From Christiangramia echinicola DSM 19838 (GTDB lineage Bacteria; Bacteroidota; Bacteroidia; Flavobacteriales; Flavobacteriaceae), in assembly GCF_000423065.1 (NCBI RefSeq), contig NZ_AUHG01000011.1, positions 744,001-808,000 of the forward strand: DNA of 64,000 nucleotides, in the 5' to 3' direction. Of this stretch, positions 37,080-56,594 are shown piece by piece. Both the position numbers and the translations under genes were made by a program. The notes under the pieces are model-generated. The model was not told the DNA's origin. It saw nothing but the letters and a program-made list of their open reading frames with translations, and did not search any database. How positions within the stretch are numbered: position 1 is the first letter of the stretch; each line of letters starts with the position of its first letter.

Positions 37080-38078
37080 ATGATCGATTTCTCAAAGGAA
37101 AAAGTATCCGGTAAAATAGTTCTTGTGACCGGAGGAGCAGGTTTTATTGGCTCTAATCTATGTGAGCTTTTAATAGCGCTTAACGCCAAAGTAATATGTC
37201 TGGATAATTTTGCCACAGGACATAGGCATAATCTGGAGACTTTTCGGGATAATCCTAATTTCACCCTTATAGAAGGAGATATTCGAGACTTGGAAATCTG
37301 TAAAAGAGCTTGTGAAGGAGTGAATTATGTTCTTCATCAGGCTGCATTAGGTTCGGTGCCCAGATCTATAAATGATCCCATTACCAGTAACGAAGTAAAT
37401 ATTTCAGGTTTTCTGAATATGTTGGTGGCAGCAAGGGATGCCGGGGTTATACGATTTGTATATGCTGCAAGTTCATCTACATATGGAGATTCAGTAAAAC
37501 TACCCAAGATTGAACAGGAAATTGGGAAACCACTTTCTCCCTATGCTATTACTAAATATGTAAATGAATTATACGCGGATATCTTTCAGAAGGCTTATGG
37601 TTTTGATACTATAGGTTTAAGATATTTTAATGTATTTGGAAGAAAACAAGATCCCAATGGAGCTTATGCCGCAGTTATTCCAAAATTCGTTATGCAATTC
37701 ATGAAGTATGAAAGTCCGGTGATTAACGGCGATGGTACCTATTCCCGTGATTTTACTTATATAGACAATGTTCTTCAAATGAATTTACTGGCAATGACCA
37801 GTAATAACCCAAAGGCGGTAAACGAGGTATATAATACAGCAGTGGGTGACAGAACCAACCTGGTAGAGCTCACACAATTGCTTAAAAAACACCTTTCAGA
37901 ATATGATGCTGAAATAGCAAAGGTGCAAGTTAAACACGGTCCTAACCGACCTGGAGATATTCCACATTCTCTGGCCTCAATAGAAAAAGCTGAAAAACTC
38001 TTGGATTATAAGCCAAGTCATAAAATTGAGGATGGAATAAAGGAAGCAGTATCCTGGTATTGGAAAAACCTTAAATAA
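37080..38078 (+). CDS. NAD-dependent epimerase, WbpP/TviC-like (UDP-GlcNAc or uronate 4-epimerase)
   Basis: An extended SDR enzyme with NAD-binding [10 protein letters not shown] (from about 17), active-site SSSTYG and YAITK (Tyr155, Lys159), and sugar-site motifs [20 protein letters not shown] and RDFTYIDNV. The sequence style matches WbpP/TviC, which epimerise UDP-GlcNAc (or UDP-GlcNAcA) at C4. The following gene is a WbpO/TviB-like dehydrogenase, so together they probably make UDP-GalNAcA. Strict substrate preference cannot be read from the sequence. Confidence 0.88.
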
Positions 38079-40779: not shown

Positions 40780-41574
40780 ATGAATGAAAATTTAAATATA
40801 GCGATTGGAGCTGCCATAGAAGCAGGAAATGTGATCATGAAAGTCTATGGTAGTGAAGATTTTAAAGTGGAGAACAAAGATGATGATTCGCCCTTGACGC
40901 AAGCAGATCTTAGAGCGAATGCAGTGATCAATTCATATTTGAATAATACAAGTATTCCAATAATTAGTGAAGAAAACAAGCAAACAGATTTTGATCAACG
41001 TAAAAACTGGACAAATTGTTGGATCGTAGATCCTTTGGATGGAACCAAAGAATTTATAAAAAGGAATGGTGAATTCACTGTAAACATAGCATATATAGCT
41101 AATAACTTACCAAAATTAGGGGTGATCTACGTACCGGTACAAAAGACTATTTATTATGCTGATGGAAGCTCAGCCTGGAAACAGATTTTAAAAACTACTG
41201 ATCCTTTGTCTTTCGCACATGCAGATTCAACCCGAATTGCACCAGAAAAGCTTGAAGGTAAGATTCGAGTTGTGGGAAGTAGATCTCATATGAATGAGGA
41301 TACTAAAGCATATATTTCTAACCTGGAACAAAATTCAACCGATGAAATTGAGGTTGTCTCTAAGGGAAGTTCTTTAAAATTCTGTTTAGTAGCCGAGGGC
41401 AATGCTGATGTATATCCAAGGTTTGCACCAACCATGGAATGGGACACGGCCGCTGGTCAGGCTATATGCTCTGCAGCGGGTCTTAAAGTTATAGACAGGT
41501 TAACCGGTGAGGAGATGAGATACAACCGGGCGAATCTTTTAAATAATCATTTTTCGGTTTCGACAATTGGCTAA
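40780..41574 (+). CDS. cysQ: 3'(2'),5'-bisphosphate nucleotidase
   Basis: An inositol-monophosphatase-fold enzyme of 264 residues with metal-binding ISEENK, DPLDGTKEF (from Asp84) and the C-terminal WDTAAGQAI. CysQ hydrolyses PAP, the inhibitory by-product of sulfotransferases and of PAPS reduction, to AMP. Its place at the head of DUF2061-cysC-cysD-cysN and near three sulfotransferases points to recycling PAP from polysaccharide sulfation. It follows ugd with a 2-bp gap and overlaps the next frame. Confidence 0.92.
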   Translation: MNENLNIAIGAAIEAGNVIMKVYGSEDFKVENKDDDSPLTQADLRANAVINSYLNNTSIPIISEENKQTDFDQRKNWTNCWIVDPLDGTKEFIKRNGEFTVNIAYIANNLPKLGVIYVPVQKTIYYADGSSAWKQILKTTDPLSFAHADSTRIAPEKLEGKIRVVGSRSHMNEDTKAYISNLEQNSTDEIEVVSKGSSLKFCLVAEGNADVYPRFAPTMEWDTAAGQAICSAAGLKVIDRLTGEEMRYNRANLLNNHFSVSTIG

Positions 41575-42028
41575 CACCTATAAAAGACATATCGCCAAAA
41601 CTGTAACCTGGAGGGTGATTGGTACCATAGATACCATAATACTTTCCTGGATAATTACAGGGAATCCTTATACAGGGATGAAAATTGGTTTTTCAGAAGT
41701 GATAACCAAAATGGTATTGTATTATTTTCATGAACGTATTTGGTTCAATATTAAGGCTGGTGTCACTAAAAACGGAGATAGTCGTAAGAGGCATATTGCG
41801 AAAACTATTACCTGGCGTTGTGTTGGGACCATAGATACTATGTTGCTGGCTTGGTGGATTTCTGGAAATCCTTTTACCGGATTAAAAATAGGAGCTGTAG
41901 AGTTGATCACTAAAATGATCCTTTACTACCTGCATGAAAGAGCCTGGTATAAATATGATTTTGGTCTGCAGCAGCGGAGAAGTAAGAAATTAAAGAAAGA
42001 TAAAGAATTACATTATAGTGATGAATAA
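41567..42028 (+). CDS. Tandem DUF2061 membrane protein
   Basis: Two copies of the short DUF2061 unit are present: RHIAKTVTWRVIGTIDTIIL (about 7-26) and RHIAKTITWRCVGTIDTMLL (about 76-95), each followed by a glycine-containing hydrophobic segment and ITKM..LYY.HER.W. The function is unknown, but genes of this family often sit inside sulfate-assimilation operons, so a role in sulfate activation or transport is possible. The likely start is TTG at 41567, overlapping the cysQ stop by 8 bp; no ATG fits the conserved N-terminus. Confidence 0.82.
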   Translation: MANTYKRHIAKTVTWRVIGTIDTIILSWIITGNPYTGMKIGFSEVITKMVLYYFHERIWFNIKAGVTKNGDSRKRHIAKTITWRCVGTIDTMLLAWWISGNPFTGLKIGAVELITKMILYYLHERAWYKYDFGLQQRRSKKLKKDKELHYSDE

Positions 42029-42617
42029 TATTGTTCCACATACATTTAATATCGATCGAATGGATCGAAACAAGCTCAAAGGTCATAATTCTTTTGTAAT
42101 TTGGTTTACTGGCCTATCTGGGTCTGGTAAATCTACCCTCGCCAATATGGTTGAAAAAGAACTTTATCAAAAGGGAATACATACTTTCTCTTTAGATGGT
42201 GATAATGTGCGAAGTGGTTTGAATAATAATTTGGGCTTTGCTCGGGAAGATCGCGAAGAAAATTTGCGTAGGATTGCAGAGGTAGCTAAATTATTTGTTG
42301 ATTCTGGAAACGTAGTTATTGCGTCCTTTATTTCTCCTTTAAGTTCAGATAGAAATTTTATAAAGAATATTATTGGGAGCAAGGATTTTGTCGAAGTTTT
42401 TGTAAATACACCCCTGGAAGTTTGTGAATCACGAGATGTAAAGGGACTTTATAAAAAGGCTCGTATTGGAGAAATTAAAAATTTTACTGGAATTGATGCT
42501 CCATATGAAGCACCATTTTCACCTGAAGTAGAAGTTAAAACAGATCTTGAAGATGCTGAAGTTTCCGTATCCAGGATCGTGGAATATGTAAAGAACAAAT
42601 TAGAAATAAAGAAGTAA
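42021..42617 (+). CDS. cysC: Adenylylsulfate kinase
   Basis: This APS kinase phosphorylates APS to PAPS. It has Walker [10 protein letters not shown] (about 31-39), SLDGDNVRSGLNNNLGF with the APS-binding Asp/Arg, REENLRRIAEVA, and the KGLYKKARIGEIKNFTGID motif. At 198 residues the length is normal. ATG at 42021 is preferred to a GTG 3 bp upstream; it overlaps the DUF2061 stop by 8 bp and cysD by 1 bp (TAATG). Its dedicated kinase activity is what is needed for sulfotransferases rather than plain cysteine synthesis. Confidence 0.94.
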   Translation: MNNIVPHTFNIDRMDRNKLKGHNSFVIWFTGLSGSGKSTLANMVEKELYQKGIHTFSLDGDNVRSGLNNNLGFAREDREENLRRIAEVAKLFVDSGNVVIASFISPLSSDRNFIKNIIGSKDFVEVFVNTPLEVCESRDVKGLYKKARIGEIKNFTGIDAPYEAPFSPEVEVKTDLEDAEVSVSRIVEYVKNKLEIKK

Positions 42618-43522
42618 TGAGTAAATATTATCTGAATTACCTGGATGAACTGGAGTCTGAAGCAATTTTTATTTTGCGTGAAGTCTGGGCTCAATTTGAA
42701 AACCCTGTAATCCTTTTTTCAGGCGGGAAAGATTCAATTTTAGTTACCCATCTGGCAAAAAAAGCTTTTTACCCAAGTAAGATACCATTTGCTTTGATGC
42801 ATGTGGATACTGGACATAATTTTCCTGAAACTATCAAATTCAGAGATGATTTAATCGAAAGTCTTGGTGCTAAGCTTATTGTGGGGTCAGTCCAGAAATC
42901 TATAGATCAGGGTAGAGTCGCGGAAGAAAAGGGTAAAAATGCTACTCGAAATGCTTTGCAAATCACTACACTTCTCGATGCAATTGAAGGGAATAAGGTG
43001 GATTGCGCAATAGGAGGCGGAAGAAGAGATGAAGAAAAAGCCAGGGCTAAAGAGCGTTTTTTCTCTCATCGAAATGATTTTGGTGAATGGGATCCAAAAA
43101 ATCAAAGGCCCGAATTGTGGAATTTGTTAAACGGAAAACAATTTGAAGGAGAACATTTCAGAGCCTTTCCAATAAGTAACTGGACCGAGATGGATGTTTG
43201 GAACTATATCAAAAGAGAGAATATTAGTATTCCATCACTTTATTTTGCTCATGAAAGAGAAGTTGTTTTCAGAAGTAATTCCTGGATCCCGGTTTCGGAA
43301 TACCTTAAGTTGGAGGATGGAGAAAAGATCGAAAAGAAAAAGATTCGATTTAGAACCTTAGGAGATATTACCATAACAGGTGGAATTGAATCTGAAGCGG
43401 ACACATTAGACAAGATAGCCGATGAGGTTTCGGCAATGAGAAAGACTGAAAGGGGTGATCGTTCTGATGATAAGCGTTCTGAAACAGCGATGGAAGACCG
43501 TAAAAAGCAAGGTTATTTTTAA
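42617..43522 (+). CDS. cysD: Sulfate adenylyltransferase subunit 2
   Basis: CysD is the PP-loop catalytic subunit that makes APS from sulfate and ATP together with the GTPase CysN. The loop LFSGGKDSI (about 33-41) and the conserved GRRDEEKARAKER, FRAFPISNWTEMDVW and RFRTLGDITITGGIES motifs are all there. Length (301 residues) is typical. It starts in a TAATG overlap with cysC and is separated from cysN by a palindrome. Confidence 0.95.
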   Translation: MSKYYLNYLDELESEAIFILREVWAQFENPVILFSGGKDSILVTHLAKKAFYPSKIPFALMHVDTGHNFPETIKFRDDLIESLGAKLIVGSVQKSIDQGRVAEEKGKNATRNALQITTLLDAIEGNKVDCAIGGGRRDEEKARAKERFFSHRNDFGEWDPKNQRPELWNLLNGKQFEGEHFRAFPISNWTEMDVWNYIKRENISIPSLYFAHEREVVFRSNSWIPVSEYLKLEDGEKIEKKKIRFRTLGDITITGGIESEADTLDKIADEVSAMRKTERGDRSDDKRSETAMEDRKKQGYF

Positions 43523-43530
43523 TCAAAAGC

Positions 43531-43560
43531 CTACGTCACTCTGAACTAGTTTCAGAGTCT
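43531..43560. repeat. Small palindrome (REP-like) between cysD and cysN
   Basis: ACTCTGAA (43538-43545) pairs perfectly with TTCAGAGT (43551-43558) around CTAGT, within CTACGTCACTCTGAACTAGT. The form resembles dispersed small palindromes of flavobacterial genomes (CGTCA..CTGAA..TTCAG..TCT). It could also lower or stabilise cysN transcript levels. Only one copy is seen here. Confidence 0.5.
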
Positions 43561-43598
43561 TATAAATTATACTAGAAAACGTTTAGCAAAAAAAAATA

Positions 43599-44855
43599 AT
43601 GGAAATCAATAATAATCAATTACTTAGATTCACCACCGCTGGAAGTGTCGATGATGGAAAAAGTACTCTCATCGGGCGACTTCTATTTGATTCAAAATCA
43701 ATTTTTGAGGATCAGTTAGAATCTGTTACAAATACCAGCGCTAAAAAAGGTCACGATGGAGTTGATCTGGCACTTTTTACTGACGGTTTGAAAGATGAAA
43801 GAGAACAAGGTATAACCATTGATGTAGCTTACCGGTACTTTACCACCCCAAAGCGAAAATTTATTATAGCCGATACTCCTGGACATATTCAGTATACCAG
43901 GAATATGGTAACTGGTGCCTCTACTGCAAATGCAGCTTTAATCCTTATCGATGCCCGTCATGGGGTTATCGAACAAACTAAAAGGCACTCATTTATAGCT
44001 TCTTTATTGAATATTCCACATTTAATTGTTTGTATCAATAAAATGGACCTCGTTGATTTTTCTGAAGAAAAGTATAATGAGATCATTACTCAATTTGAGG
44101 AATTTTCATCAAAACTACTAGTAAAAGATGTTCGTTTTGTGCCAATGAGTGCGCTTTTAGGTGATAATGTAGTGAATCGCTCAGAAAATATGAACTGGTA
44201 CGGCGGAGGAACTTTATTAAGTATTTTGGAAACTTTACATATTAGCAGTGATATTAATAAGATAGATGCAAGGTTCCCGGTACAAACAGTATTACGGCCA
44301 CAAAGTGATGAGCACAGAGATTATAGGGGTTATGCAGGTAGGGTAGCCAGCGGTATATATAGGACCGGAGATGAGGTAGCTGTATTACCATCAGGCTTTA
44401 CATCAAAAATAAAATCTATGAACGCTGGAGAAAATGAAATTGAAGAAGCTTTCGCTCCCATGTCTATCTCCATGACTTTGGAAGATGATATTGATGTAAG
44501 CCGTGGTGATATGATTGTGAAGAAAAATAATCAGCCGGAAGGAGAACAGGAGTTTGATGTAATGCTATGTTGGTTAAATAATGATCCGGCAAAGCCACGT
44601 GCCAAATACACGGTGATGCATACTTCCAACGAGCAAAGAGCCATGATCAAAAATGTCGTTTATAAGATTGATATTAATACTTATAATAGAAATACAGAAG
44701 ATAAAGACTTATCCATGAACGATATCGCTAGAGTAACCATTAGGACCACACACAGAATTATGCTGGACTCATACAGAGATAACAGGAATACCGGTAGCAT
44801 TATCTTAATAGATGAAAATACCAATGAAACCGTTGCGGCGGGAATGATTGTTTAA
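43599..44855 (+). CDS. cysN: Sulfate adenylyltransferase subunit 1 (GTPase)
   Basis: An EF-Tu-like GTPase that drives APS formation by CysD. G1 is GSVDDGKSTL (about 15-24), G3 DTPGHIQYTRNM, G4 NKMDL and G5-like SALLGDN; the Mg-binding REQGITIDVAYRYF is present. At 418 residues it lacks the fused CysC domain of NodQ-type proteins, which fits the separate cysC in this operon. It is the last sulfate-activation gene before the first sulfotransferase, 5 bp downstream. Confidence 0.95.
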   Translation: MEINNNQLLRFTTAGSVDDGKSTLIGRLLFDSKSIFEDQLESVTNTSAKKGHDGVDLALFTDGLKDEREQGITIDVAYRYFTTPKRKFIIADTPGHIQYTRNMVTGASTANAALILIDARHGVIEQTKRHSFIASLLNIPHLIVCINKMDLVDFSEEKYNEIITQFEEFSSKLLVKDVRFVPMSALLGDNVVNRSENMNWYGGGTLLSILETLHISSDINKIDARFPVQTVLRPQSDEHRDYRGYAGRVASGIYRTGDEVAVLPSGFTSKIKSMNAGENEIEEAFAPMSISMTLEDDIDVSRGDMIVKKNNQPEGEQEFDVMLCWLNNDPAKPRAKYTVMHTSNEQRAMIKNVVYKIDINTYNRNTEDKDLSMNDIARVTIRTTHRIMLDSYRDNRNTGSIILIDENTNETVAAGMIV

Positions 44856-44860
44856 ATTTT

Positions 44861-45646
44861 ATGAAATTTATCTCAATCTTAGGTTACGACCGGAGTGGAA
44901 CTACATTTTTAGGCAGTTATTTAAATCATATCAATGGCGATATTTTTTATGCCGGCGAGATTGATAAGGGTATTAGAATATTCTTCTCCGGATCTAATAA
45001 AAAATGTACCTGTGGAAATATTTATGCTGAATGTCCTGTCTGGGGCAAGATATTTCCTTTTTTAGATCCAGATAATATTGATTTAGAGTTTATATCAAAT
45101 AAAATTTTTGAATTAACAGGCGCAAGTGTGATTGTAGATTCTTCTAAAAGCTTTAAATATATTAGAAAGTTTAAAAAACATTTTAAAGGGAGATATTTAA
45201 GTATACATCTTAAAAGAAATCCTAAAGCAGTGATATTATCCCGAATGAATTTAAGAAAAAGGCGGGTAAATAAAGGAACACATCCAAAACCGTATATTGC
45301 TAAAAAATATAATTTGATGATGATTTTTGATAGCTTGGAATGGTGTTACGAAAATATCTGGTTTGAAAAATTCAAAGATGAAGATACCAACCTGGATTTA
45401 ACCTATGATTTTTTTGGTTCGGAACTGCCTTCTAAAATCCTCAAATTTTTAGAGATTAACAATTTAGACCAGTTAGGAAATGAAAAAGTCGTTAATCATA
45501 TAGTGTTTGGTAACAAGGGGAGGTTAAATTTTAGATGGAAAGTGGAAATTAACCATACTTGGAAAAATGATTTGAATAAATTTCAAAAGCTGAGCGTAGA
45601 TTTATTTACATATCCAACGCGCAGGATTTATAACTATTCTTTTTAA
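44861..45646 (+). CDS. Sulfotransferase 1
   Basis: The 5'-phosphosulfate-binding loop GYDRSGTTFLGS lies at residues 8-19 and the 3'-phosphate-binding region HLKRNPKAVILSRMN near 125-139, the usual arrangement in PAPS-dependent sulfotransferases. A small cysteine cluster (KKCTCGNIYAECPVW) lies between them. At 261 residues it is compact. Immediate position after cysN (5-bp gap) strongly supports PAPS use. The acceptor is probably a lipid-linked or nascent polysaccharide in the cytoplasm; this is inference. Confidence 0.88.
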   Translation: MKFISILGYDRSGTTFLGSYLNHINGDIFYAGEIDKGIRIFFSGSNKKCTCGNIYAECPVWGKIFPFLDPDNIDLEFISNKIFELTGASVIVDSSKSFKYIRKFKKHFKGRYLSIHLKRNPKAVILSRMNLRKRRVNKGTHPKPYIAKKYNLMMIFDSLEWCYENIWFEKFKDEDTNLDLTYDFFGSELPSKILKFLEINNLDQLGNEKVVNHIVFGNKGRLNFRWKVEINHTWKNDLNKFQKLSVDLFTYPTRRIYNYSF

Positions 45647-45678
45647 GAAAAATTTCTAAAATTTAATTAGGTAAACTT

Positions 45679-46722
45679 ATGAAGGTATTAATTACGGGAG
45701 GGGCTGGATTTATTGGTTCTCATTTGGTGCGATTATTAGTTAATAAATATCCGAATTACAAAATATTTAATCTAGATACATTGACTTATGCAGGTAATTT
45801 AGAGAATTTAAAGGACATCGAGAATGCTGAGAATTATCATTTTTTAAAAGCGAATATTAATAATTCAAATGAAATAAATGAACTATTCGAAACTCACCAA
45901 TTTAATAAAGTTATTCATTTAGCAGCCGAGTCGCACGTAGATCGATCTATATCAGATCCCTTAACTTTTGTTCGTACCAATGTTATTGGTACCATGAATT
46001 TACTCAATGCTGCATTGGAAACCTGGAAAGCTGATTTTAATGATAAATTGTTCTATCATATTAGTACGGATGAGGTTTACGGAACATTGGGAAAAGAAGG
46101 TTTATTTACTGAAACAACATCATACGATCCTAATTCACCATATTCGGCTTCCAAGGCCAGTAGTGATCATTTTGTACGTGCTTATGGTGAAACCTATGGT
46201 CTACCTTATATCATATCGAACTGCTCAAACAATTATGGTCCCAATCAATTCCCGGAAAAATTAATTCCTCTCTTTATTAATAATATTATTGAAGAAAAAG
46301 GACTGCCGGTTTATGGAGACGGTAAATATACTAGGGATTGGTTATATGTGAAAGATCATGCTATCGCAATAGATCTTGCATTTCATATAGGTAGAATTGG
46401 AGAAACCTATAATATCGGTGGATTTAACGAATGGCAAAATATAGAACTTATTAAGTTGCTATGTGTAATTATGGATACTAAATTGAATAGGGAAAAAGGC
46501 AGTTCAGCCAAGCTTATCAGTTTTGTAAAAGATAGGCCTGGGCACGATAAGCGTTATGCTATAGATGCTTCTAAAATAAATAAAGAATTAGGTTGGGAGC
46601 CATCTGTAACCTTTGAACAAGGTCTTGTGAAAACAATAGATTGGTATTTGGAAAATAATGAGTGGCTCACAAATGTCACTAGTGGTACATATAAAGATTA
46701 TTATAAAAAACAATATTCATAA
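45679..46722 (+). CDS. rfbB: dTDP-glucose 4,6-dehydratase
   Basis: This SDR enzyme has [10 protein letters not shown] (from about 6), [12 protein letters not shown], the catalytic triad region [10 protein letters not shown] and [10 protein letters not shown] (Tyr155, Lys159), and [19 protein letters not shown]. It converts dTDP-glucose to dTDP-4-keto-6-deoxyglucose. The usual rfbC and rfbD are not in the window. With rfbA and a DegT-type aminotransferase nearby it more likely feeds a dTDP-amino-deoxysugar than rhamnose. Confidence 0.94.
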
Positions 46723-47588
46723 TGAAAGGAATCATTTTAGCAGGAGGATCTGGAACTCGTTTATATCCAATAACCATTGCGGTAAGCAAGCAATTATTGC
46801 CAGTCTATGATAAACCCATGATTTATTACCCCCTTTCAGTATTAATGCTCGCGGGAATACGAGAAATTTTATTTATTACCACTCCTCACGATCAAGCATC
46901 TTTTAAAAAATTATTAGGTGATGGATCGGAATTAGGATGTAATTTTGATTATGCCATTCAAGATGAGCCGAATGGTCTTGCAGAAGCTTTTATAATAGGT
47001 AAAGAATTTATAGGGCATGATAAGGTAGCTTTGGTTTTGGGAGATAATATTTTTTATGGTAACGGTTTTGGAAGTTTACTACGAAGTAAAATTAACCTAA
47101 AGGGAGCTTCTATATTTGCATATCCTGTGAAAGACCCACAACGCTATGGTGTTGTCGAATTTAATAATGATAACAAGGCTATAAGTATTGAGGAGAAGCC
47201 AGAAAAACCAAAATCCAGATATGCTGTTCCAGGCCTTTACTTTTATGATAATAAAGTGGTTGAATATGCGAAAAATGTCCAACCCTCAGCTAGGGGTGAA
47301 AAAGAAATATCTGCCTTAAATCAAATGTACTTGGACGACGGAGCATTAGAAGTAGGTGTAATGACCCGCGGTATGAGCTGGTTTGATACCGGTACAGTAG
47401 AATCTTTAGATGATGCGACCGAATTTATTAGAGTAATACAAAACAGACAAAGCGCCATGATAGGATGTATTGAAGAAGTGGCCTATCAAAGAGGGTTTAT
47501 AGAAAGATCTACATTAATTGAACTCTCTGGTAAATACGGCAAATCTAAATACGGTGAGTATTTAAAAGAATTGGCTAAGTCTTTATAG
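46722..47588 (+). CDS. rfbA: Glucose-1-phosphate thymidylyltransferase
   Basis: The nucleotidyltransferase signature [11 protein letters not shown] (about 8-18), [20 protein letters not shown] and [10 protein letters not shown] are all present in a 288-residue protein of standard length. It makes dTDP-glucose from dTTP and glucose-1-phosphate. It overlaps rfbB by one base (TAATG), confirming co-translation. Confidence 0.95.
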
Positions 47589-49034
47589 ATGTCCCTAAGA
47601 AAGCAAGCTACCTCAGGTTTTGTTTGGACTTTTGCTCAGCAATTTGGAAATCAAATTATAGGATTTATTATTTCAGTAATTTTAGCAAGGTTATTATTGC
47701 CTGCTGAATTTGGGTTAATTGGAATGATTGCAATATTTGTTTCTGTAGGGAAGGTCTTAATTGCTTCAGGACTTACACAATCATTAATTAGGAGCGAAAA
47801 TCCTGATCAGGAAGATTATTCAACGGTTTTTTATTTTAATCTTCTTGCAAGTATTTTAATTTATTTGATAATTTATCTTTCGGCTCCCTGGATTGCTGCT
47901 TTTTACAATCAAGATATTCTAACTGGAATCATACGCTTGTTTTGTGTAACATTTATAATTGATGCATTCGCTTCAGTTCAAACTACGAGGTTAACCAAAT
48001 TAATGAACTTTAAAACACAAGCTATCATCGCCATTCCAGCAACTATTTTTGGAGGAATTGTGGGAGTTGCGCTCGCTTATTCAGGCTTTGGGGTTTGGAG
48101 TTTAGTATGGAGTAATATATCAAGCTCTGTAGTATTAAGTGTACAGTTATGGATATATTCAAAATGGGCACCGAGTTTAGTCTTTAATATTGAAAAATTT
48201 AAGCAGCATTTTAATTTCGGTTATAAAATTACCTTATCGAGTTTATTAAATAAACTCTTTAGCAATATTTACCTCATTCTAATAGGACGCTATTTTTCTG
48301 CTAGTCAAGTTGGTTTTTATACTAGAGCAGAGACTATGAAACAATTACCAGTTACAAACATTTCTAATGCTTTAAATAAGATCACTTATCCCTTATTTGC
48401 ATCGATACAAAATGATAATATAAGACTGAAACGGGTTTATAAGCAACTTATGCAAATGGTTGTATACATTGTCGCGCCTACTTTAGTTTTTTTAGCTGTC
48501 TTGGCAGAACCTTTCTTTAGATTATTATTTACAGAGAAGTGGTTGCCAGCTGTTCCATACTTTCAAATTTTATGTATCACAGGGATACTTTACCCAATCC
48601 ATGCATACAATTTAAATGTCTTAAAAGTCAAGGGAAGAAGTGACCTTTATTTAAAATTAGCCATTATTAAGAAATCACTTATGGTCATTGCCGTATTGGT
48701 AGGGTTACAATTTGGAATCTATGGTTTGTTATACACCCAGGTAATTTTATCTTTTAGTGCATTTGTTATTAATGCTTATTACACTGATAGATTTATAAAT
48801 TATTCAGCTTTTCAACAATTTAAAGATATTTTTCCAATAATAATTGTCTCATGCCTTGCTGGTATGTCAATATTTTTACTAGATAATTTTTTACATAATT
48901 TTCTAGATATTTTCAGAATAATTTTCGGAGGGATTTTAGGTGTTTCAATTTATTTAATTCTGAGTTCTATTTTGAAATTATCCAGTTTGTATGAAATCAA
49001 AAAGATTATTTTCAAAAAAATAAATTTTAAATAA
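47589..49034 (+). CDS. Wzx-like oligosaccharide flippase 2 (MOP superfamily)
   Basis: A 481-residue multi-span protein with the same opening as the first flippase (MSLRKQATSGFVWTFAQQFG), GFYTRAETMKQLPVTNI and FTEKWLPAVPYFQ. It begins directly after the rfbA stop. Since its AT content is visibly higher and third-position choices differ from the first copy, it is probably an older paralogue or separately acquired gene rather than a recent tandem duplication. It would export undecaprenyl-linked units made by the downstream transferases. Confidence 0.9.
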   Translation: MSLRKQATSGFVWTFAQQFGNQIIGFIISVILARLLLPAEFGLIGMIAIFVSVGKVLIASGLTQSLIRSENPDQEDYSTVFYFNLLASILIYLIIYLSAPWIAAFYNQDILTGIIRLFCVTFIIDAFASVQTTRLTKLMNFKTQAIIAIPATIFGGIVGVALAYSGFGVWSLVWSNISSSVVLSVQLWIYSKWAPSLVFNIEKFKQHFNFGYKITLSSLLNKLFSNIYLILIGRYFSASQVGFYTRAETMKQLPVTNISNALNKITYPLFASIQNDNIRLKRVYKQLMQMVVYIVAPTLVFLAVLAEPFFRLLFTEKWLPAVPYFQILCITGILYPIHAYNLNVLKVKGRSDLYLKLAIIKKSLMVIAVLVGLQFGIYGLLYTQVILSFSAFVINAYYTDRFINYSAFQQFKDIFPIIIVSCLAGMSIFLLDNFLHNFLDIFRIIFGGILGVSIYLILSSILKLSSLYEIKKIIFKKINFK

Positions 49035-49066
49035 AGGTACTTCATACTGTTAATTTTTATAAAATC

Positions 49067-49819
49067 ATGGAGTGGATCGAAATTTTAGGACCATCGGGTA
49101 TAGGAAAATCATTTTTCTTAAAATCTCTTATAAGTGAAAGGAATAAAGAATCTAATTGGTTAAGCATTGAAGAAATTAAACTAAAATGGGTTTTAAAAAA
49201 TTCAAAAAAAGAGGGCTTAGTTGCATCACTAATCAAATTATATCTTCGTCAAGATTTTGTTAATAGTGAAAAAAGCAATTTAACAGAAATTTTATTGGAT
49301 AGAAAAAATGCGTATCTAAAAGAAGCTGAGATTTTTGAAGAATTACTTAAGACCTATATAAACCATTATATAGATCTGGATATATGCTTTAAAGAAAAAT
49401 CATATAGAATTTCCCTATTTCATAAAATTATTGAGAATCTGTGCTTACAAGATTATTATAATATTAAAAATCCAATTGTAATGGATGAAGGACCACTAAG
49501 TCATCATCCGGATTTAATTAGGGTTGATTGGGATAATCAAAAAACTTTACCTAACGGTCTGATATTTTGTAGTTTATCTGTTGAAAAAAATCTTTCTAGA
49601 ATTTATAAAAGAAAAAATGAAGGTAGGCTAGCTCCACTCCATCATGGTCTAGATAAACCAGACTTAATTAAACACATTGAAGAAAAACATCATAATTATT
49701 TAACCAAGCAGAAAATTTTGATGACCTTAGGAATACCGTTTATCGAAATTAATTTAGATAATGTTGAACCAAATATACTAGTTAAGGCCCAAAATTTTAT
49801 AAAGAATGTCACCAAATAA
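49067..49819 (+). CDS. P-loop protein of unknown function
   Basis: This 250-residue protein opens with MEWIEILGPSGIGKS, a clear Walker A (residues 8-15), and later has VMDEGPLSHHPDLI, which resembles a small-molecule kinase acceptor/lid region. No ABC signature or second strong motif is present, so a sugar or nucleotide kinase-like role, or phosphotransfer in polysaccharide assembly, is only inference. It is translated into the aminotransferase gene with a 14-bp overlap. Confidence 0.7.
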   Translation: MEWIEILGPSGIGKSFFLKSLISERNKESNWLSIEEIKLKWVLKNSKKEGLVASLIKLYLRQDFVNSEKSNLTEILLDRKNAYLKEAEIFEELLKTYINHYIDLDICFKEKSYRISLFHKIIENLCLQDYYNIKNPIVMDEGPLSHHPDLIRVDWDNQKTLPNGLIFCSLSVEKNLSRIYKRKNEGRLAPLHHGLDKPDLIKHIEEKHHNYLTKQKILMTLGIPFIEINLDNVEPNILVKAQNFIKNVTK

Positions 49820-50891
49820 TATTATACCAGTAACAAAAACATTTTTTCCACCAATTCAGGAATACCATGTTCAATTAGATCGTATTTGGAAAAATGAATG
49901 GTTGACTAATCGCGGGGAATTGGTAAAAGAATTAGAGGCTAATTTAAGGTCTTATTTAGATGTGCCAAACATTACCTCAACCACTAATGGTACGCTCCCT
50001 ATACAAATTGCTCTCAAAGTACTAGCCAAGGGAGGAGAAGTTATTACAACTCCTTTTAGCTATGTAGCAACAACTTCTGCAATTGTTTGGGAGAACTGCA
50101 CTCCGGTTTTTGTGGATATCCATCCTGAATTCTTAACCATAGATGAGACAAAGATTGAAGCTGCTATTACATCAAAAACAACAGCTATCTTGGCTACACA
50201 TGTCTTTGGAAATCCTTGTAATGTTGACATGATAGAAAAAATAGCGTTGAAGTACAATTTAAAGGTGATTTATGACGCTGCTCATGGTTTTGGAGTGGAG
50301 TACGAAAGAAAAAGTTTGTTTAATTACGGAGATGTGAGTACGTGTAGTTTTCATGCCACTAAAATTTTTCATACAGGAGAAGGAGGAGCATTTGTTTGTC
50401 AAAACGATGAGCTTAATAAGGAATTATACTATCATCATAATTTTGGACATGCTGGTCCAGCGGAATTTCATGGTTTAGGTATAAATGCCAAAATGAGTGA
50501 ACTTCAAGCAGCCATGGGACTAAGTGTTATGCCTTACATGGCGAAAATTTTTTCCGAGCGTAAAAACGTTGTTGATTTTTATGACGAAAATTTAAATTTC
50601 AATAATTTGGAAAAAATGAAAATCCGGAGTAATACAAAATGGAATTATAGCTATTATCCTATTATTTTTAATTCTGAGGAAGCCTTACTTAAAGCACAGG
50701 ATAATTTAAATCGGGAAAATATTTTTCCTAGAAGGTATTTTTATCCTTCTTTAAATCTGTTAAATTATGTCGAAAACATCTCTATGAGTGTATCTGAATC
50801 CATTTCACGAAGAGTATTATGTCTACCTTTATATTTTGGAATCAAATCAGAGGAATTGAATCGAATTACAAATAAAATTAATTCTATATGA
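49806..50891 (+). CDS. DegT/DnrJ/EryC1-family sugar aminotransferase
   Basis: A PLP enzyme of 361 residues with TTNGTLPIQIAL, TTPFSYVATTSAI, YDAAHGFG and the Schiff-base lysine in CSFHATKIFHTGEGG (Lys186). It transfers an amino group to a nucleotide keto-sugar. With rfbA and rfbB nearby, the substrate is probably dTDP-4-keto-6-deoxyglucose (VioA-like product dTDP-Qui4N) or a 3-keto isomer; the exact position cannot be decided here. It overlaps both neighbours (14 bp, then ATGA). Confidence 0.9.
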   Translation: MSPNNIIPVTKTFFPPIQEYHVQLDRIWKNEWLTNRGELVKELEANLRSYLDVPNITSTTNGTLPIQIALKVLAKGGEVITTPFSYVATTSAIVWENCTPVFVDIHPEFLTIDETKIEAAITSKTTAILATHVFGNPCNVDMIEKIALKYNLKVIYDAAHGFGVEYERKSLFNYGDVSTCSFHATKIFHTGEGGAFVCQNDELNKELYYHHNFGHAGPAEFHGLGINAKMSELQAAMGLSVMPYMAKIFSERKNVVDFYDENLNFNNLEKMKIRSNTKWNYSYYPIIFNSEEALLKAQDNLNRENIFPRRYFYPSLNLLNYVENISMSVSESISRRVLCLPLYFGIKSEELNRITNKINSI

Positions 50892-51775
50892 CAGATGCTC
50901 ACCCACTTTTTATATTAGGAAATCCCAGATCTGGAACTTCTTTATTTAGAATAATGCTCACCAGCCATCCAAATATTTGTATACCACCAGAGTGTGGCTT
51001 TATTCAATGGTGGTATAGTAAATATAAAAATTGGTCTAAAACAGATTCCACAAATGAAATTAGAGTTACAAGTTATATTGAAGATTTAAAATCCTCTAAA
51101 AAAATTGAGACATGGAATTTAGACTTTTCAGATTTACATAAATTAATTGTAAAAAGCATGGCTTCGAATTACGCAGAATTATCTTTCTGTGTATTACAAC
51201 AATTTTGTTCTCAGCAGAATAAGAATGCAATTTATTTAGGTGACAAGAATAACTATTATATTCATCATTTAGATATTATAAGGGAGATATATCCTACCGC
51301 GAAATATTTAGCAATAGTTAGAGATGGTAGAGATGTGGCTTGCTCTTATAAGAATTTGAAAAACCTTAAAAGTACTTCAAAATATAAACCGATACTACCC
51401 ACTGAAATCGGTGAAATAGCTGAAGAATGGCGAGAGAATAACTTAAAATTACTCAATTTTGGTGAAATGATTGGGACGAAAAACTTTACCTTTATAAGGT
51501 TTGAGGATTTATTAACAAATAGTGAAGGAACGCTGCAATCCATATGTAGTTTTTTACAAATCGATTATAATATTGAAATGTTGAAATATGCAGAGAATAA
51601 TATTAATAATAAAATAGAACCAGATAAATTAGTCGATTGGAAAAAGAAAACTTTTCTACCCCCAGATTCCTCTAGTATAGGTAAATATAAGTATGAATTA
51701 ACAAGAAACGAGATAGAGACATTTCAATCTGTCAATTCTGATTTAATTGATTTATTAGGTTATGATAAAATATAA
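50888..51775 (+). CDS. Sulfotransferase 2
   Basis: The classic PAPS loop GNPRSGTSLFRIML (about 11-24) is followed by HPNICIPPECGF, and the 3'-phosphate site reads LAIVRDGRDVACSYKNLK (about 139-156). It is 295 residues long and soluble by sequence. It couples by ATGA to the aminotransferase and overlaps the next GT2 frame by 14 bp, so it is firmly part of the polysaccharide operon. A role sulfating a sugar of the repeat unit is likely. Confidence 0.9.
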   Translation: MTDAHPLFILGNPRSGTSLFRIMLTSHPNICIPPECGFIQWWYSKYKNWSKTDSTNEIRVTSYIEDLKSSKKIETWNLDFSDLHKLIVKSMASNYAELSFCVLQQFCSQQNKNAIYLGDKNNYYIHHLDIIREIYPTAKYLAIVRDGRDVACSYKNLKNLKSTSKYKPILPTEIGEIAEEWRENNLKLLNFGEMIGTKNFTFIRFEDLLTNSEGTLQSICSFLQIDYNIEMLKYAENNINNKIEPDKLVDWKKKTFLPPDSSSIGKYKYELTRNEIETFQSVNSDLIDLLGYDKI

Positions 51776-52676
51776 AGTTAGTGTTAGATTAATCACTTTT
51801 AATCATAGTCAATTTATTGAAAAATCTATTGAAGGGGTTTTAATGCAACAATCCAATTTTTTGATTGAGCTTATTATTGGAGATGATTTTTCTACCGACA
51901 ATACAAGGGATTTAATTGCAAATTATAAAAGCACTAAAAACGTACATATAAAATTCTTGGATAGACCTTTTAAAGGAGAATATTTCTATGAAAGAGAAAA
52001 GAATGGCAGGCTGTATAATTTTGCTAATACTGTTTCTAATTGTACAGGTGAATATATTGCACTTTTAGATGGCGATGATTACTGGACAGATCCTTACAAA
52101 TTGCAGAAGCAAGTTGATTTTTTGGAAAATGATCTAAATTTTTCGGCATGTTTCACTGATGCTATTGTTTATAATGAGCATTCCAAAGAGAAATCTAATT
52201 ATTTAAATAAAAATAAAAAAAGATCAACTTTTCACACAGAAGATATTATTAAAGGAGGTGGGGGATTATTTCCTACTGCATCCTTAGTTTTTCGAAACTT
52301 AATTCATGATTTTCCTAATTTCTTTTATGAAGCAAAATCTGGAGATCGTGCCCTGAGTTTGCTATTATCAGTTCACGGAAGTTTTTACTGCATGGGAGAT
52401 GTAACCTGTGTTTACCGAGTTCATAACGGAGGGATATTTTCAAATATTATTGAAAAAAAAGAAAAGAGAAATGATATAACTAGGAACAATATAAAGTTAC
52501 TTCAAGATTTTGATATTCATTCAAACTTTGTATTTACCAAGATAATTAAACAAACAATTTCCAACCTTTCTAAGAAAGTATTAATTAATAGTAAGTCCGA
52601 ATTAAAAATGAGTCTTATTAGGAACTTAACTTTGAGAGACTTTCTATCTTATATTAAAAATTTTAATCTTAAATGA
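51762..52676 (+). CDS. GT2-family glycosyltransferase A
   Basis: An inverting GT-A enzyme with N-terminal VSVRLITFNHSQFIEKSIEG, the nucleotide-binding IIGDDFSTDNT and the metal-binding LLDGDDYWTDPYKLQKQVDF (D-x-D type), 304 residues. GT2 enzymes transfer sugars from UDP- or dTDP-donors to lipid-linked acceptors at the inner membrane. The acceptor and donor cannot be told from the sequence. The start ATG overlaps the sulfotransferase end by 14 bp and its stop overlaps the next ATG. Confidence 0.9.
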   Translation: MIKYKVSVRLITFNHSQFIEKSIEGVLMQQSNFLIELIIGDDFSTDNTRDLIANYKSTKNVHIKFLDRPFKGEYFYEREKNGRLYNFANTVSNCTGEYIALLDGDDYWTDPYKLQKQVDFLENDLNFSACFTDAIVYNEHSKEKSNYLNKNKKRSTFHTEDIIKGGGGLFPTASLVFRNLIHDFPNFFYEAKSGDRALSLLLSVHGSFYCMGDVTCVYRVHNGGIFSNIIEKKEKRNDITRNNIKLLQDFDIHSNFVFTKIIKQTISNLSKKVLINSKSELKMSLIRNLTLRDFLSYIKNFNLK

Positions 52677-53545
52677 TTTCAATAACTATACCAACCTATA
52701 ATCGCGCTAAATTTCTACCCAGGGCAATAAGCAGTATTTTAAATCAAAGTAATCAAAATTGGGAGTTAATTATTTCTGATGATGGTTCCACCGATGATAC
52801 TGAAGCGGTTGTGGGAAAATATTTAAGTGATCCCAGAATAAAATACTTGAAAAATTCCAATGCTGGCGCTACCGCAGCACGAAATTCAGGGGTTAAAGTA
52901 TCTACAGGTGATTTTATAACTTTTTTGGATAGTGATGATGAAGCAAAACCAAATTGGTTAGAAGCATTTCAGAAGGAAATAGAAAATGAAGCAGAAGTTG
53001 TATGTTGTGGATACGAGTATTTAGATCACAAGGGTAATTTAATTCGGGAGAATTATCCTATTGATATGGGGCCTTTATATAACAATCGTATCGGAAGATT
53101 TACTAATGGGGGGGTTTTCTTAATAAAAAAAGAATATTTTCAGAAAATTGGAGGTTATGATGAAAATGTAAAATCTGGACAACATTCAGAAATGGCAATT
53201 AGACTATTCCAAATTTTAGATCAGAATAAAATTGAAATTAAAAATATATATAAGCCTCTCATCAAAGTTCATGTTCATCAGGGACCCAAAATCAGATCAG
53301 ATCATAAAGCTATATTTTTGGGTAATAGTTATACTTTGAATAAACATGAAAGTTTATTTTCTAAACATAAATTGATCTACGCTAATTATCTCAGTGTTGG
53401 TGCCCATAGTGCAGTGAAAATTGAGAAATATGAGGAGGCTAAGAAATTATTTTATAAGGCCTGGAAATTGGACCCATTTAATATAAAGAGATTTGGAAGG
53501 TTAATAATAGTACAGTTTCCTTTTATGAGGAAGAAATTTTGGTAA
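52673..53545 (+). CDS. GT2-family glycosyltransferase B
   Basis: A second GT-A enzyme of 290 residues: ISITIPTYNRAKFLPRAISS, IISDDGSTDDT, AARNSGVKVSTGDFITFLDS followed by the DxD-like DSDDE. It starts in an ATGA overlap with the preceding GT2 gene, so the two are probably made in equal amounts and act on consecutive linkages. A 115-bp gap follows before the GT4 gene. Confidence 0.92.
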   Translation: MISITIPTYNRAKFLPRAISSILNQSNQNWELIISDDGSTDDTEAVVGKYLSDPRIKYLKNSNAGATAARNSGVKVSTGDFITFLDSDDEAKPNWLEAFQKEIENEAEVVCCGYEYLDHKGNLIRENYPIDMGPLYNNRIGRFTNGGVFLIKKEYFQKIGGYDENVKSGQHSEMAIRLFQILDQNKIEIKNIYKPLIKVHVHQGPKIRSDHKAIFLGNSYTLNKHESLFSKHKLIYANYLSVGAHSAVKIEKYEEAKKLFYKAWKLDPFNIKRFGRLIIVQFPFMRKKFW

Positions 53546-53660
53546 ATTATGTAACTGAATTTAATTTATAATTGAACGTAATTATTCCTAAGATAGCGCT
53601 AAATTTTGACTTAAATTTTCTTACAGGACAGCGTTTGCAATTCAATAAAGCCCGTCATTT

Positions 53661-54809
53661 ATGATTAAAAAATATTTAGCAGTACAGGATAGCCTTGGGA
53701 CTGGGGGTGCTGAACGTTCTAATGCCGAACTTTGGGATTATTTAAAAAAATGTAATGTACAGATTAAAATAATTGTCCTAAGACATAGAATAGAAGGCGT
53801 AGAAAAGGAAATTTTGGAAAAAGGATTTGACGTACATTTTTTGCAATCTGGAATTTTAATGCAGCAAGCAAAGACTATTGCAAAGATCATTGAAAATTTT
53901 GAACCAGATATAGTTCACTCTGTACTTTTTAAGGCATCGCTGCGTGTTCGCATGGCCAAATTATTCACCAGATTTTATCATATTGAAAGTTTGGTAACTA
54001 TGCCTTATGCAAAAATTAGATTGAATGACCCCAGTGCAAATAAATTTTATATTCAAATATTTCGAGGAATCGATTTAATTTCTAAATATTTTGGTGTAGA
54101 TCATTTTCACGCTAACGGTGAAACAGTAGCCAATCATTACTTTAAAAAACTACGAATAAAGAAATCGAAAATATCTGTAATTCCTAGAGGAAGAAAAGTG
54201 AATTACTGTCTTGATAATCCTGGCGTAATAGGCGGTTTGAGAAATGAATTTAATTCAAAAAATCATATCCAGATTATACATGTAGCACGACATGAATATC
54301 CGAAAGGCCAGGATATTTTATTAGATGCATTTGGTAGGTTAGTAAATATTAAGGAAAAATTTAAAGTCCTACTAGTTGGTCGAGATGGAAAATTAACTAA
54401 AAAGATTAAGCACAAAATTGAAGAATTTGGATTGGGCAATTCAATCCATATAGTCGGACATCGGGGGGATATTTATGAACTACTGGCCTCTTCTGATATT
54501 TTTGTTTTTCCTTCAAGATTTGAAGGTTTGCCTGGAGCTTTAATAGAGGCAGAAGCCGCGGGCCTTCCTATTATTTGTTCAGATATCCCGAATAATTTGG
54601 AAGTTATTGAAGAAAATAGAAATGCTTTGGTGTTTAAAAATGAAGACCCTGTAAGTTTAGCCGAAAATTTAAATAAATTAATTATGGATAAAGAAAAAAG
54701 GTTGGAAATGGGGAAAGAAAGTTTAAGAATTTATAAAGAGCGATTTCAAATCGAAACCGTAAATAAAAGAATGCTAAACCTATTTATTGATTTAACCAGT
54801 AAATATTAA
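53661..54809 (+). CDS. GT4-family glycosyltransferase C
   Basis: A GT-B retaining enzyme of 382 residues. The N-terminal donor-side glycine motif is DSLGTGGAERSNAEL (about 10-24) and the C-terminal GT4 signature is FPSRFEGLPGALIEAEAAGL with the catalytic glutamate pair E(x7)E. Such enzymes use nucleotide-sugar donors and act at the cytoplasmic face of the membrane. A 115-bp non-coding stretch before it may contain a promoter, though none with both boxes was recognised. Confidence 0.92.
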   Translation: MIKKYLAVQDSLGTGGAERSNAELWDYLKKCNVQIKIIVLRHRIEGVEKEILEKGFDVHFLQSGILMQQAKTIAKIIENFEPDIVHSVLFKASLRVRMAKLFTRFYHIESLVTMPYAKIRLNDPSANKFYIQIFRGIDLISKYFGVDHFHANGETVANHYFKKLRIKKSKISVIPRGRKVNYCLDNPGVIGGLRNEFNSKNHIQIIHVARHEYPKGQDILLDAFGRLVNIKEKFKVLLVGRDGKLTKKIKHKIEEFGLGNSIHIVGHRGDIYELLASSDIFVFPSRFEGLPGALIEAEAAGLPIICSDIPNNLEVIEENRNALVFKNEDPVSLAENLNKLIMDKEKRLEMGKESLRIYKERFQIETVNKRMLNLFIDLTSKY

Positions 54810-54819
54810 AATTTTTAAA

Positions 54820-55686
54820 ATGCGCCAATTGTTCTATGGATTCCTGCTTCCGTTTAATTCTATTTTTAAGTATTTCACAAAAGGTACCATAAAAGTTTTG
54901 GCATATCATGGTGTCAAAGATTCACAGGCCTTTGAATTACAATTAAATTATTTGTCTAGAGCATATAACGTAATTAGCTTAAAACAACTTAATCATCATA
55001 TAGAGACTAAACAAAAATTGCCGGTAAATTCTTTGCTAATTACTTTTGATGATGGAGATATATCCATTTTTAAAGAGGGATTACCTTTGTTGAAAAAATA
55101 TAATTTACCGGCCATTGTATTTGTGATCACAGACTTAATAAATAGCAAGAAAGCATTTTGGTGTAAACAAGTAGTAGAAACTTTACAAAAATCGGGAAAG
55201 ACTTATGTTGAAGCAAGGAAAAAAGTTAATCACCTGAAAAATATTCCTGAGTCTGAAAGAAAATCAGAATTGCAGAATATTCCTCAACTTGAAGATGAGC
55301 AATTTTCTACAGAAATGATTTTAAAACTGAAAAAAAATAATATTGAAATTGGAAATCATACCCATACACACCCTATGATAAATAATTGTAGTGTTGCAGA
55401 GATAGAACAGGAAATGAAAGAAAGTAGAAGAGTTTTTGAAAATCTGGGACTAAAAGAAAATTTTTCAAATTTTGCCTATCCCAATGGTAATTGGAATTTG
55501 GGTTCAGAAAAAGTTTTAATTGGTCAAGGTGTCAAAACGGCATTTTTATTTGATCATAAATTAAATAAAAAAATAATCAATCCTATGAGGATATCTAGAA
55601 TTAGAGTGAATACCTATACTCCTTTGAGAGAATTTAAAACTAAAGTTTCTGGACTGCATCCAATATTAATGCACCTCTTTAAATAA
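54820..55686 (+). CDS. Polysaccharide deacetylase (NodB/CE4 family)
   Basis: This 288-residue protein contains the NodB motif LLITFDDGD (about 71-79) and the metal-binding GNHTHTHPMI (His pair), plus FAYPNGNWN further on. It removes N- or O-acetyl groups from sugars. An N-terminal hydrophobic stretch suggests membrane attachment rather than a cleaved signal. With the MBOAT pair at 31900 it suggests that the polymer's acetylation is edited. It starts 10 bp after the GT4 gene. Confidence 0.9.
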   Translation: MRQLFYGFLLPFNSIFKYFTKGTIKVLAYHGVKDSQAFELQLNYLSRAYNVISLKQLNHHIETKQKLPVNSLLITFDDGDISIFKEGLPLLKKYNLPAIVFVITDLINSKKAFWCKQVVETLQKSGKTYVEARKKVNHLKNIPESERKSELQNIPQLEDEQFSTEMILKLKKNNIEIGNHTHTHPMINNCSVAEIEQEMKESRRVFENLGLKENFSNFAYPNGNWNLGSEKVLIGQGVKTAFLFDHKLNKKIINPMRISRIRVNTYTPLREFKTKVSGLHPILMHLFK

Positions 55687-55706
55687 TAAATGAAAGATTC
55701 AAAATA

Positions 55707-56594
55707 ATGTTGAATAATATAATTTATAAAAACAAATCTATTCTTCATAGGCTCACGGCAAGATTTAGAAAAAATTCACTTTATTCCAAGGTTTTAGAAA
55801 AAACGGGGTCTAAAAAAGAGAAACAAAAATGGATATTTATATTAGGCTGCTATAATTCTGGCACAACATTGTTGAATGAAATATTAGCACAGCATCCAGA
55901 AATTAGTGGATTACCAGATGAAGGAGTAATGCTAACCAATCAGTTGGTAAAACCGGAAGATTTTGGATGGAGAAGAATGTGGTCTCAGTGTGAAGCCAAA
56001 ATGGAAAACTCTTCTGTGAATAAAAATAAGAATGCTCATATAATTAAAAAACATTGGTCCCACTTTTATGAGCCAAATATTTTTTTTGTAGAAAAATCTA
56101 TATCTAATATTTGTCGAATACCCTTTTTTGCTGAAAATTTTAAGCCAGCCTATTTTATTCATATCGTTAGAAATGGATATGCGGCTGCAGAAGGCATTCA
56201 GCGTAAAGCCGAAATAATGGAGGATAATAAATTTCATGGAAATCAAAAGTATCCAATAGAAATATGCATTGAGCAATGGACACAAAGCTTGGATAAAATT
56301 GAAAAAGCTAAAATTGAAATGGAAAATTTTTTGGAAATAAGCTATGAAGAGTTATCTGAAGAGACTGTAAAAACTATGAATAAAATTACAGATTTTTTAA
56401 ATTTAAATAATTATCCTCCAGATTTTTTTCGAAAATCGTTTTTGATTCATGGTTCTAACAATAAAATTCGAAATATGAACAAGAAAAGTTTAAGTAATTT
56501 AAATACTCGAGATTTGGAAATAATAAATGAGAGAGCAAGTTTATATCTTTCGAAATATGGATACGATCTGATTACAGCAAGGAGTGATTCTTAA
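55707..56594 (+). CDS. Sulfotransferase 3
   Basis: The PAPS loop reads FILGCYNSGTTLLNEILAQH (about 44-63), with Asn in place of the usual Arg, followed by EISGLPDEGVML. The 3'-phosphate site IHIVRNGYAAAEGIQRKA lies near residue 151. Gene length is 295 residues. The DNA is notably AT-rich. Loop variation suggests a different acceptor from the other two sulfotransferases. It is codirectional with the surrounding operon. Confidence 0.85.
   Translation: MLNNIIYKNKSILHRLTARFRKNSLYSKVLEKTGSKKEKQKWIFILGCYNSGTTLLNEILAQHPEISGLPDEGVMLTNQLVKPEDFGWRRMWSQCEAKMENSSVNKNKNAHIIKKHWSHFYEPNIFFVEKSISNICRIPFFAENFKPAYFIHIVRNGYAAAEGIQRKAEIMEDNKFHGNQKYPIEICIEQWTQSLDKIEKAKIEMENFLEISYEELSEETVKTMNKITDFLNLNNYPPDFFRKSFLIHGSNNKIRNMNKKSLSNLNTRDLEIINERASLYLSKYGYDLITARSDS

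Follow-up and report, generated by a model that had tools for sequence, protein, structure and literature searches.

The 64,000-nucleotide stretch of the Christiangramia echinicola DSM 19838 genome analyzed here (contig NZ_AUHG01000011.1, positions 744,001 to 808,000; hereafter the window) carries a sulfate-activation cassette within a polysaccharide locus, together with three genes of sulfotransferase type, all on the + strand. The cassette begins with cysQ (40780..41574), predicted to encode a 3'-phosphoadenosine 5'-phosphate (PAP) phosphatase (Inositol_P; TIGR01331 at 255.6 bits, cut-off 228.8; DPLDGT motif), followed by a gene for a small helical protein with two DUF2061 stretches (41567..42028; PF09834, 4.7e-44). 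Next come cysC, for adenosine 5'-phosphosulfate (APS) kinase (42018..42617; APS_kinase; TIGR00455, 256.3 against 138.7 bits; P-loop GLSGSGKS), cysD, for the small subunit of ATP sulfurylase (42617..43522; PAPS_reduct; TIGR02039, 404.2 against 396.6 bits; SGGKDS motif), and cysN, for its GTPase subunit (43599..44855; GTP_EFTU; TIGR02034, 547.9 against 336.1 bits), which has no APS kinase fusion. Stricter equivalog models were missed by CysQ (NF008182, 236.1 against 379 bits) and narrowly missed by CysD (NF009214, 411.5 against 413) and CysN (NF003478, 584.6 against 590). The genes overlap from cysQ through cysD; a gap of 76 bp separates cysD from cysN, and one of 5 bp separates cysN from the gene for the first sulfotransferase, ST1 (44861..45646). 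Two further genes, for ST2 (50888..51775) and ST3 (55707..56594), lie downstream. The initial annotation of this DNA had described the same arrangement, and it is borne out by open reading frames (ORFs) with Pfam and NCBIfam matches.

The three sulfotransferase genes are not equally convincing. For the binding of 3'-phosphoadenosine 5'-phosphosulfate (PAPS), we take the classical motif pair to be a 5' loop with Arg and a 3' loop of the form Arg-x7-Ser. This pair is intact in ST2 (RSGTS and RDGRDVACS; Sulfotransfer_3, 1.3e-33, 117.5 bits against a cut-off of 27), whose solved relatives include the CurM sulfotransferase, and in ST1 (RSGTT and RNPKAVILS). It is altered in ST3 (NSGTT and RNGYAAAEG; Sulfotransfer_3, 1.3e-23, 84.8 bits against 27). 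Thus, of the "three different PAPS loops" first proposed, those of ST1 and ST2 are canonical, while ST3 is changed in both loops, and the three acceptor positions suggested along with them do not follow from the sequences. A Salinimicrobium catena relative (locus L122), 52% identical to ST3, has its PAPS loops changed likewise. RSG, a CxC...C pattern, and DSSK recur in four distant relatives of ST1 (22 to 37% identical, one a fragment); ST1 has no NCBIfam match. We compared the locus with 130 genomes of the family Flavobacteriaceae, one per genus and including the window's own; in this set, ST1 matches were found in 4 genomes, including its own, the other 3 being weak and partial, and ST3 matches in 7, including its own. 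Several features weigh against sulfation by all three proteins: ST1 lies just above the Sulfotransfer_1 cut-off (23.3 against 22 bits), has no match in the PDB at E up to 1, and gave an AlphaFold2 (AF2) model, from its single sequence, with a predicted local distance difference test score (pLDDT) of 31, while ST3 has N for R in its 5' loop and no Ser in its 3' loop. On these sequence features, ST2 reads as a clear, ST1 as a probable, and ST3 as a doubtful classical PAPS sulfotransferase.

No PAPS reductase or sulfite reductase had been noted in the initial annotation, which took the pathway to be dedicated to sulfation rather than cysteine synthesis. The former statement is true of the window only. 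Elsewhere in the source assembly (3.5 Mb in 18 contigs, 99.85% complete, not closed), contig C7 carries a gene for a 219-amino-acid CysH (PF01507) adjoining one for a 697-amino-acid CysI (PF01077), and nearby ORFs that we take to be cysG-, metY-, metX-, homoserine dehydrogenase-, and metH-like. The presence of both genes on C7 rules out their absence from the genome. PF01507 has two matches only in the genome, the window CysD and the C7 CysH, and no Sat was found by a search that gave matches in 5 of 14 control genomes; with one CysD and no Sat, a second ATP sulfurylase is ruled out within the assembly. The single APS kinase match in the genome is the window cysC. Since this genome holds cysH and cysI and its ATP sulfurylase was found only in the window, CysDN should serve cysteine synthesis as well as sulfation, which contradicts the proposed dedication as far as CysDN is concerned.

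Across the comparison set, ATP sulfurylase genes occur in two kinds of operon. We counted cysC at >=161 bits (84 genomes matched, and 19 with only <=32 bits were dropped), which placed it in 65 of the 130 genomes. CysD was sorted manually into type A or type B, judging by position and by the profile range matched among the hits listed (down to about 81 bits), giving type A in 53 genomes, type B in 57, and both in 5. Genes of fetched loci were named by their best BLAST match to proteins of the window's own genome. In the type A sample (20 loci, all from genomes without cysC), cysH stood ahead of cysD and cysN in 20/20, followed by cysI in 16/20, and a single DUF2061 gene stood ahead of cysH in 20/20 (19 by the gene caller; G125 by a separate search). 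The type B sample consisted of loci from 40 of the 64 other cysC genomes. All five cassette genes were present in 34 of these, and in 31 they followed the same order as in the window, at times with additional called ORFs between; of the remaining six, one had no DUF2061, two had cysQ-DUF2061-cysC, two had cysQ-cysC, and one had cysC alone. A tree of 56 CysD sequences (20 A and 36 B; genomes with both operons entered without their type A sequence) split A from B with a Shimodaira-Hasegawa-like approximate likelihood ratio (SH-aLRT) support of 100 and put the window among the B sequences, with G031 and G007 as its closest neighbors. Like the window, then, the type A assimilatory operon, DUF2061-cysH-cysD-cysN, has ATP sulfurylase genes with DUF2061 in front, but its CysD lies across the tree split, its DUF2061 is single, and cysH stands where the window has cysC.

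Loci retrieved from named organisms gave a similar picture. Among 80 retrieved with the window CysD, cysC lay shortly upstream of cysD in 71 and was absent there in 8, and 1 had no called CysD. All five genes were present in 38 of the 71 cysC-type loci, and 50 of the 71 had at least two matches to the glycan genes of the region. Genera represented include Salinimicrobium, Salegentibacter, Aequorivita, Winogradskyella, Mesonia, and Psychroflexus; the window CysD shares 95% identity with that of Salegentibacter agarivorans, and a locus from this species (L127) holds two cysQ-cysC-cysD-cysN sets inside 13 kb. The G+C content of the window's cys genes is 37% and that of the three sulfotransferase genes 29 to 30%, a contrast that fits a conserved cassette with exchangeable cargo. 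A cassette dedicated to sulfation, as first proposed, would accord with its seat within the polysaccharide locus, 5 bp ahead of ST1, and with a type B cysD that stands apart from the cysH-linked type A; given cysH and cysI and no other CysD or Sat in the genome, however, that proposal is contradicted unless an ATP sulfurylase was missed in the assembly or the strain depends entirely on reduced sulfur, and we consider it very unlikely.

The DUF2061 gene stands directly before cysH as a single copy in type A loci or before cysC as a double copy in type B loci, and it precedes cysC even in two type B loci without a following cysDN (L109 and L116). It seems, therefore, to track the APS-consuming enzyme. 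An AF2 model of the window protein (pLDDT 84.9) has five helices, arranged as two hairpins and a C-terminal helix; a fold search with this model against the PDB gave 23 matches at E<=10, the best at E 5.3 and none at <=0.001, and DUF2061 has few, single mentions in the open-access literature. Four further loci (L065, L069, L070, and L075, from G025, G045, G060, and G096) have a lone single DUF2061 before cysH with no adjoining cysD or cysN and are like a type A operon minus its ATP sulfurylase genes.

Which substrate the C7 CysH reduces determines how the two uses of sulfate would divide. By the textbook rule, CysH enzymes with an iron-sulfur (Fe-S) cluster reduce APS and those without one reduce PAPS. 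The C7 CysH has Cys74 and Cys215 only, without the cluster ligands (Cys-Cys, C-x-x-C), and scores under the cut-offs of both the APS reductase model (TIGR02055, 56.8 against 235.3 bits) and the PAPS reductase models (TIGR02057, 101.7 against 254.2; NF002537, 126.5 against 154). CysH matches were found in 99 of the 130 genomes, 98 of which were read (G101, with a 2.9e-4 match, was left out). Fe-S-free CysH occurs in 83 genomes, always with one of two P-loops, FRPYE in 60 and FGxxx in 23. All but one of the 23 genomes with FGxxx CysH have cysC, the one without it (G088) being an assembly 87% complete, whereas 40 genomes with FRPYE CysH are without cysC and 20 have it. Two Fe-S types were also seen, one in four cysC-less genomes (G020, G023, G043, and G127) and ending in ED at the P-loop site, the other in 11 genomes, of which 10 have cysC; Salinimicrobium catena has an Fe-S CysH. 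When the sequences are aligned, the FRPYE Glu shares a column with the Asp of the former Fe-S type, from cysC-less genomes, and with the Ser of FGxYS. The C7 CysH is of the FRPYE type and is 76% identical to its nearest relative, from a cysC-less genome (G111). Seven other genomes likewise combine FRPYE CysH with cysC and type B CysDN only (G000, G030, G031, G060, G100, G104, and G113), one of which, G030, additionally has an Fe-S CysH. Genome G094 is the sole genome with type B CysD and no detectable cysC, and its CysH is FRPYE.

Because CysH with CysDN but without APS kinase should imply APS reduction, this distribution suggests that CysH of the FRPYE type reduces APS with no Fe-S cluster. 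There is a precedent in moss. The FRPYE profile matches structure 4bwv weakly (1.9e-9), and we take this structure to be the moss enzyme APR-B. APR-B is described as a CysH-family enzyme that lacks both Cys pairs and acts on APS, with hints of the same from algae (PMC2275785); the FRPYE clade shares the family and the missing pairs, while the moss activity on APS is known and that of the clade is predicted from sequence. Among the open-access matches listed (most subscription journals lie outside this literature), we found no report of an Fe-S-free APS reductase in Bacteroidota, and nothing on topic, by title, linking the P-loop to the substrate specificity of these reductases.

Several observations speak against APS as the substrate. 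The best NCBIfam scores of the C7 CysH, though under the cut-offs, are with PAPS reductase models, and its nearest solved structures are PAPS reductases. On the CysH tree, the P-loop motif shows a single change. Its link to cysC therefore amounts to one event, which leaves an independent-pair test of motif against cysC without power. The E. coli PAPS reductase scores 111.9 bits with the FGxYS profile and 100.4 with the FRPYE profile, and the Fe-S APS reductase 2goy scores 41.2 and 28 bits, respectively; since the FGxYS profile scores higher against both kinds of reductase, overall similarity does not decide the substrate. An unrecognized APS kinase in the 40 cysC-less genomes is possible. If CysH instead used PAPS, the whole cassette, including CysC and CysQ, would serve cysteine synthesis as well as sulfation. 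The missing Fe-S cysteines, a classical mark of PAPS reductases, the best PDB and NCBIfam scores, and the presence of cysC in this genome all agree with such a role. The lack of a detectable APS kinase in 40 of the 60 genomes with this CysH type, the P-loop Glu where the cysC-less Fe-S type has Asp and the FGxYS type Ser, and the moss enzyme's use of APS argue the other way, and we regard PAPS reduction here as rather unlikely. We lean slightly toward a history in which FRPYE enzymes are bacterial Fe-S-free APS reductases, cysC was lost repeatedly and kept where PAPS is needed, and the cassette became the sole ATP sulfurylase in this genome. Since the C7 type of CysH occurs mostly in genomes without APS kinase, CysC, and perhaps CysQ, may be dedicated to sulfation.

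The distribution of cysC itself also points to sulfation. Sulfotransfer_3 was found in 55 of the 130 genomes (54 above the cut-off), and cysC in 54 of these 55 compared to 11 of the 75 others (Fisher P = 5.7e-24), the sole genome with Sulfotransfer_3 and no cysC being G005. Because genera are related, we also compared path-disjoint pairs, using one pairing of our choosing on the best gene tree of CysH (83 rows). Among 20 pairs differing in cysC, the sulfotransferase went with cysC in 14 and against it in 0, while 6 pairs showed no difference (P = 1.2e-4 by sign test). This control has weaknesses that count against the association, in that it used a gene tree rather than a species tree, and well-supported branches alone give 4 pairs, in the same direction and not significant. 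The link also bears on whether an assimilatory operon came to lie in the locus by chance. As the sole ATP sulfurylase found, the cassette should indeed supply assimilation, but the same five genes in 34 of 40 cysC loci of other genera and the tracking of sulfotransferases by cysC (54/55) speak against chance, to which we give next to no credence.

Taken together, we consider it probable that CysDN is shared, with sulfation of a polymer proceeding through CysC and cysteine synthesis through FRPYE CysH from APS. CysD and CysN would convert sulfate and ATP to APS, CysC would phosphorylate APS to PAPS, and the sulfotransferases would pass the sulfate of PAPS to sugar residues in the polymer that the neighboring genes build. 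CysQ would clear the leftover PAP. Part of the APS would be drawn off by CysH, and then CysI would yield sulfide for homocysteine and cysteine. APS would thus be the branch point, since CysDN is the sole ATP sulfurylase found and would feed both CysC, toward sulfation, and the Fe-S-free FRPYE CysH, toward assimilation, probably directly from APS.

Activity of the enzymes as described is presumed, and that the polymer of this locus is the acceptor we infer from context: the five-gene loci (34/40), the loci with glycan genes (50/71), and the cysC association (54/55) support the sulfated polysaccharide initially proposed. Sulfate in the polymer is itself a prediction from the genes, which counts against this reading. 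The sulfotransferases might instead modify a lipid, a small molecule, or some other acceptor, and ST3 might not be a sulfotransferase; most of the 130 genomes have no close homologue of ST1 or ST3, and the motifs of ST3 are altered, which would suit that possibility. Yet all three genes lie between glycosyltransferase and sugar-nucleotide genes in one block, and the order DegT-ST2-GT2 recurs near the cassette elsewhere, making another acceptor unlikely. Specifically, this order lies next to cysC-cysD-cysN-cysQ in Xanthovirga aplysinae (L171), which belongs to the class Cytophagia and not to the window's class, and near the cassette in G042, with one additional ORF between ST2 and GT2. The recurrence in X. 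aplysinae suggests a moving sulfation module.

The surrounding genes form a + strand run from 37080, in which UDP-sugar genes lead through the cassette to ST1, with gaps between neighbors of -14 to 115 bp as far as 58420. The block starts with an ORF that we take to encode an NAD-dependent epimerase of the nucleotide-sugar 4-epimerase type (37080..38078), with homologues of 81% (G007) and 90% (G031) identity upstream of the same cassette. It is followed by ORFs presumed to encode a WecC-like UDP-sugar dehydrogenase (38093..39379) and a UDP-glucose dehydrogenase-like protein (39383..40777, 2 bp upstream of cysQ), both kept next to the cassette in G007 and G031. After ST1 come rmlB and rmlA, for dTDP-sugar precursors (45679..47588; PF16363/PF01370 and PF00483), a Wzx-type flippase (47589..49034; PF13440, 8.7e-92), a DegT/StrS sugar aminotransferase (49806..50891; PF01041, 2.3e-82), ST2, a group identified by profile matches that comprises three glycosyltransferases (two GT2, one GT4) and a polysaccharide deacetylase (51762..55686), and ST3. 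An asparagine-synthase-like protein follows (56693..58420, +; TIGR01536, 30.1 bits, far under the cut-off of 267.1; no Pfam match), and then, at 58648-60873, a single 741-amino-acid ORF made of two tandem GT4-type glycosyltransferase units. Past the window's end the + strand run goes on, broken by two minus-strand ORFs, with genes that we take to be Wza-, Wzc-, PglC-, and PglF-like; export here would presumably proceed through the Wza/Wzc-like products as well as Wzx, in contrast to the ABC transporter of a Vibrio cluster discussed below. A scan of the window with a Bacteroidetes-type promoter pattern found 3 sites against 3.2 expected by shuffling, which gives no basis for calling a promoter. 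In locus L008, two membrane-protein ORFs (26-1126 and 8402-9640) are alike by eye; both seem to resemble polysaccharide polymerases, and the pair could reflect either a duplication or the making of two polymers.

Interest in sulfated polysaccharides from bacteria stems from their glycosaminoglycan-like properties as materials, and the cassette marks likely flavobacterial producers of them. Beyond this use, three things are worth following: the shared sole ATP sulfurylase, the DUF2061 partner, and the FRPYE enzymes as a candidate bacterial family of APS reductases that lack Fe-S clusters. The Fe-S rule for APS and PAPS becomes testable in bacteria, and different phenotypes are predicted for cysC and cysD deletions. 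If the proposal holds, FRPYE CysH frees APS kinase from cysteine synthesis, so that cysC could be lost many times and kept mainly with sulfotransferases that need PAPS.

Loci of this kind are already known from sulfated capsules of Vibrio and Cobetia; among the open-access matches listed, we found no characterized sulfated-polysaccharide cluster in Flavobacteriaceae. The capsule cluster of Vibrio sp. KMM 8419 holds cysC, cysN, cysD, and sulfotransferase genes, with a sulfated sugar identified by nuclear magnetic resonance (NMR) (PMC11641403). The window likewise has these genes within a polysaccharide cluster, but adds DUF2061 to the cassette and a Wzx flippase where the Vibrio cluster has ABC transporter export. 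In the Vibrio strain the clustered cys genes duplicate those of a separate assimilatory set, whereas the window CysDN is the only copy found, in a genome with one CysD, no Sat, and one cysC. The capsule cluster of Cobetia marina KMM 1449 has cysD, cysQ, cysN/cysC, and sulfotransferases, with the sulfated polymer structure solved by NMR (PMC11766843). It shares with the window cysD, cysQ, cysN, cysC, and sulfotransferases, and the reading of CysQ as a PAP phosphatase; it differs in its fused cysN-cysC and a sulfate permease within the operon, where the window has separate genes and no permease in the block.

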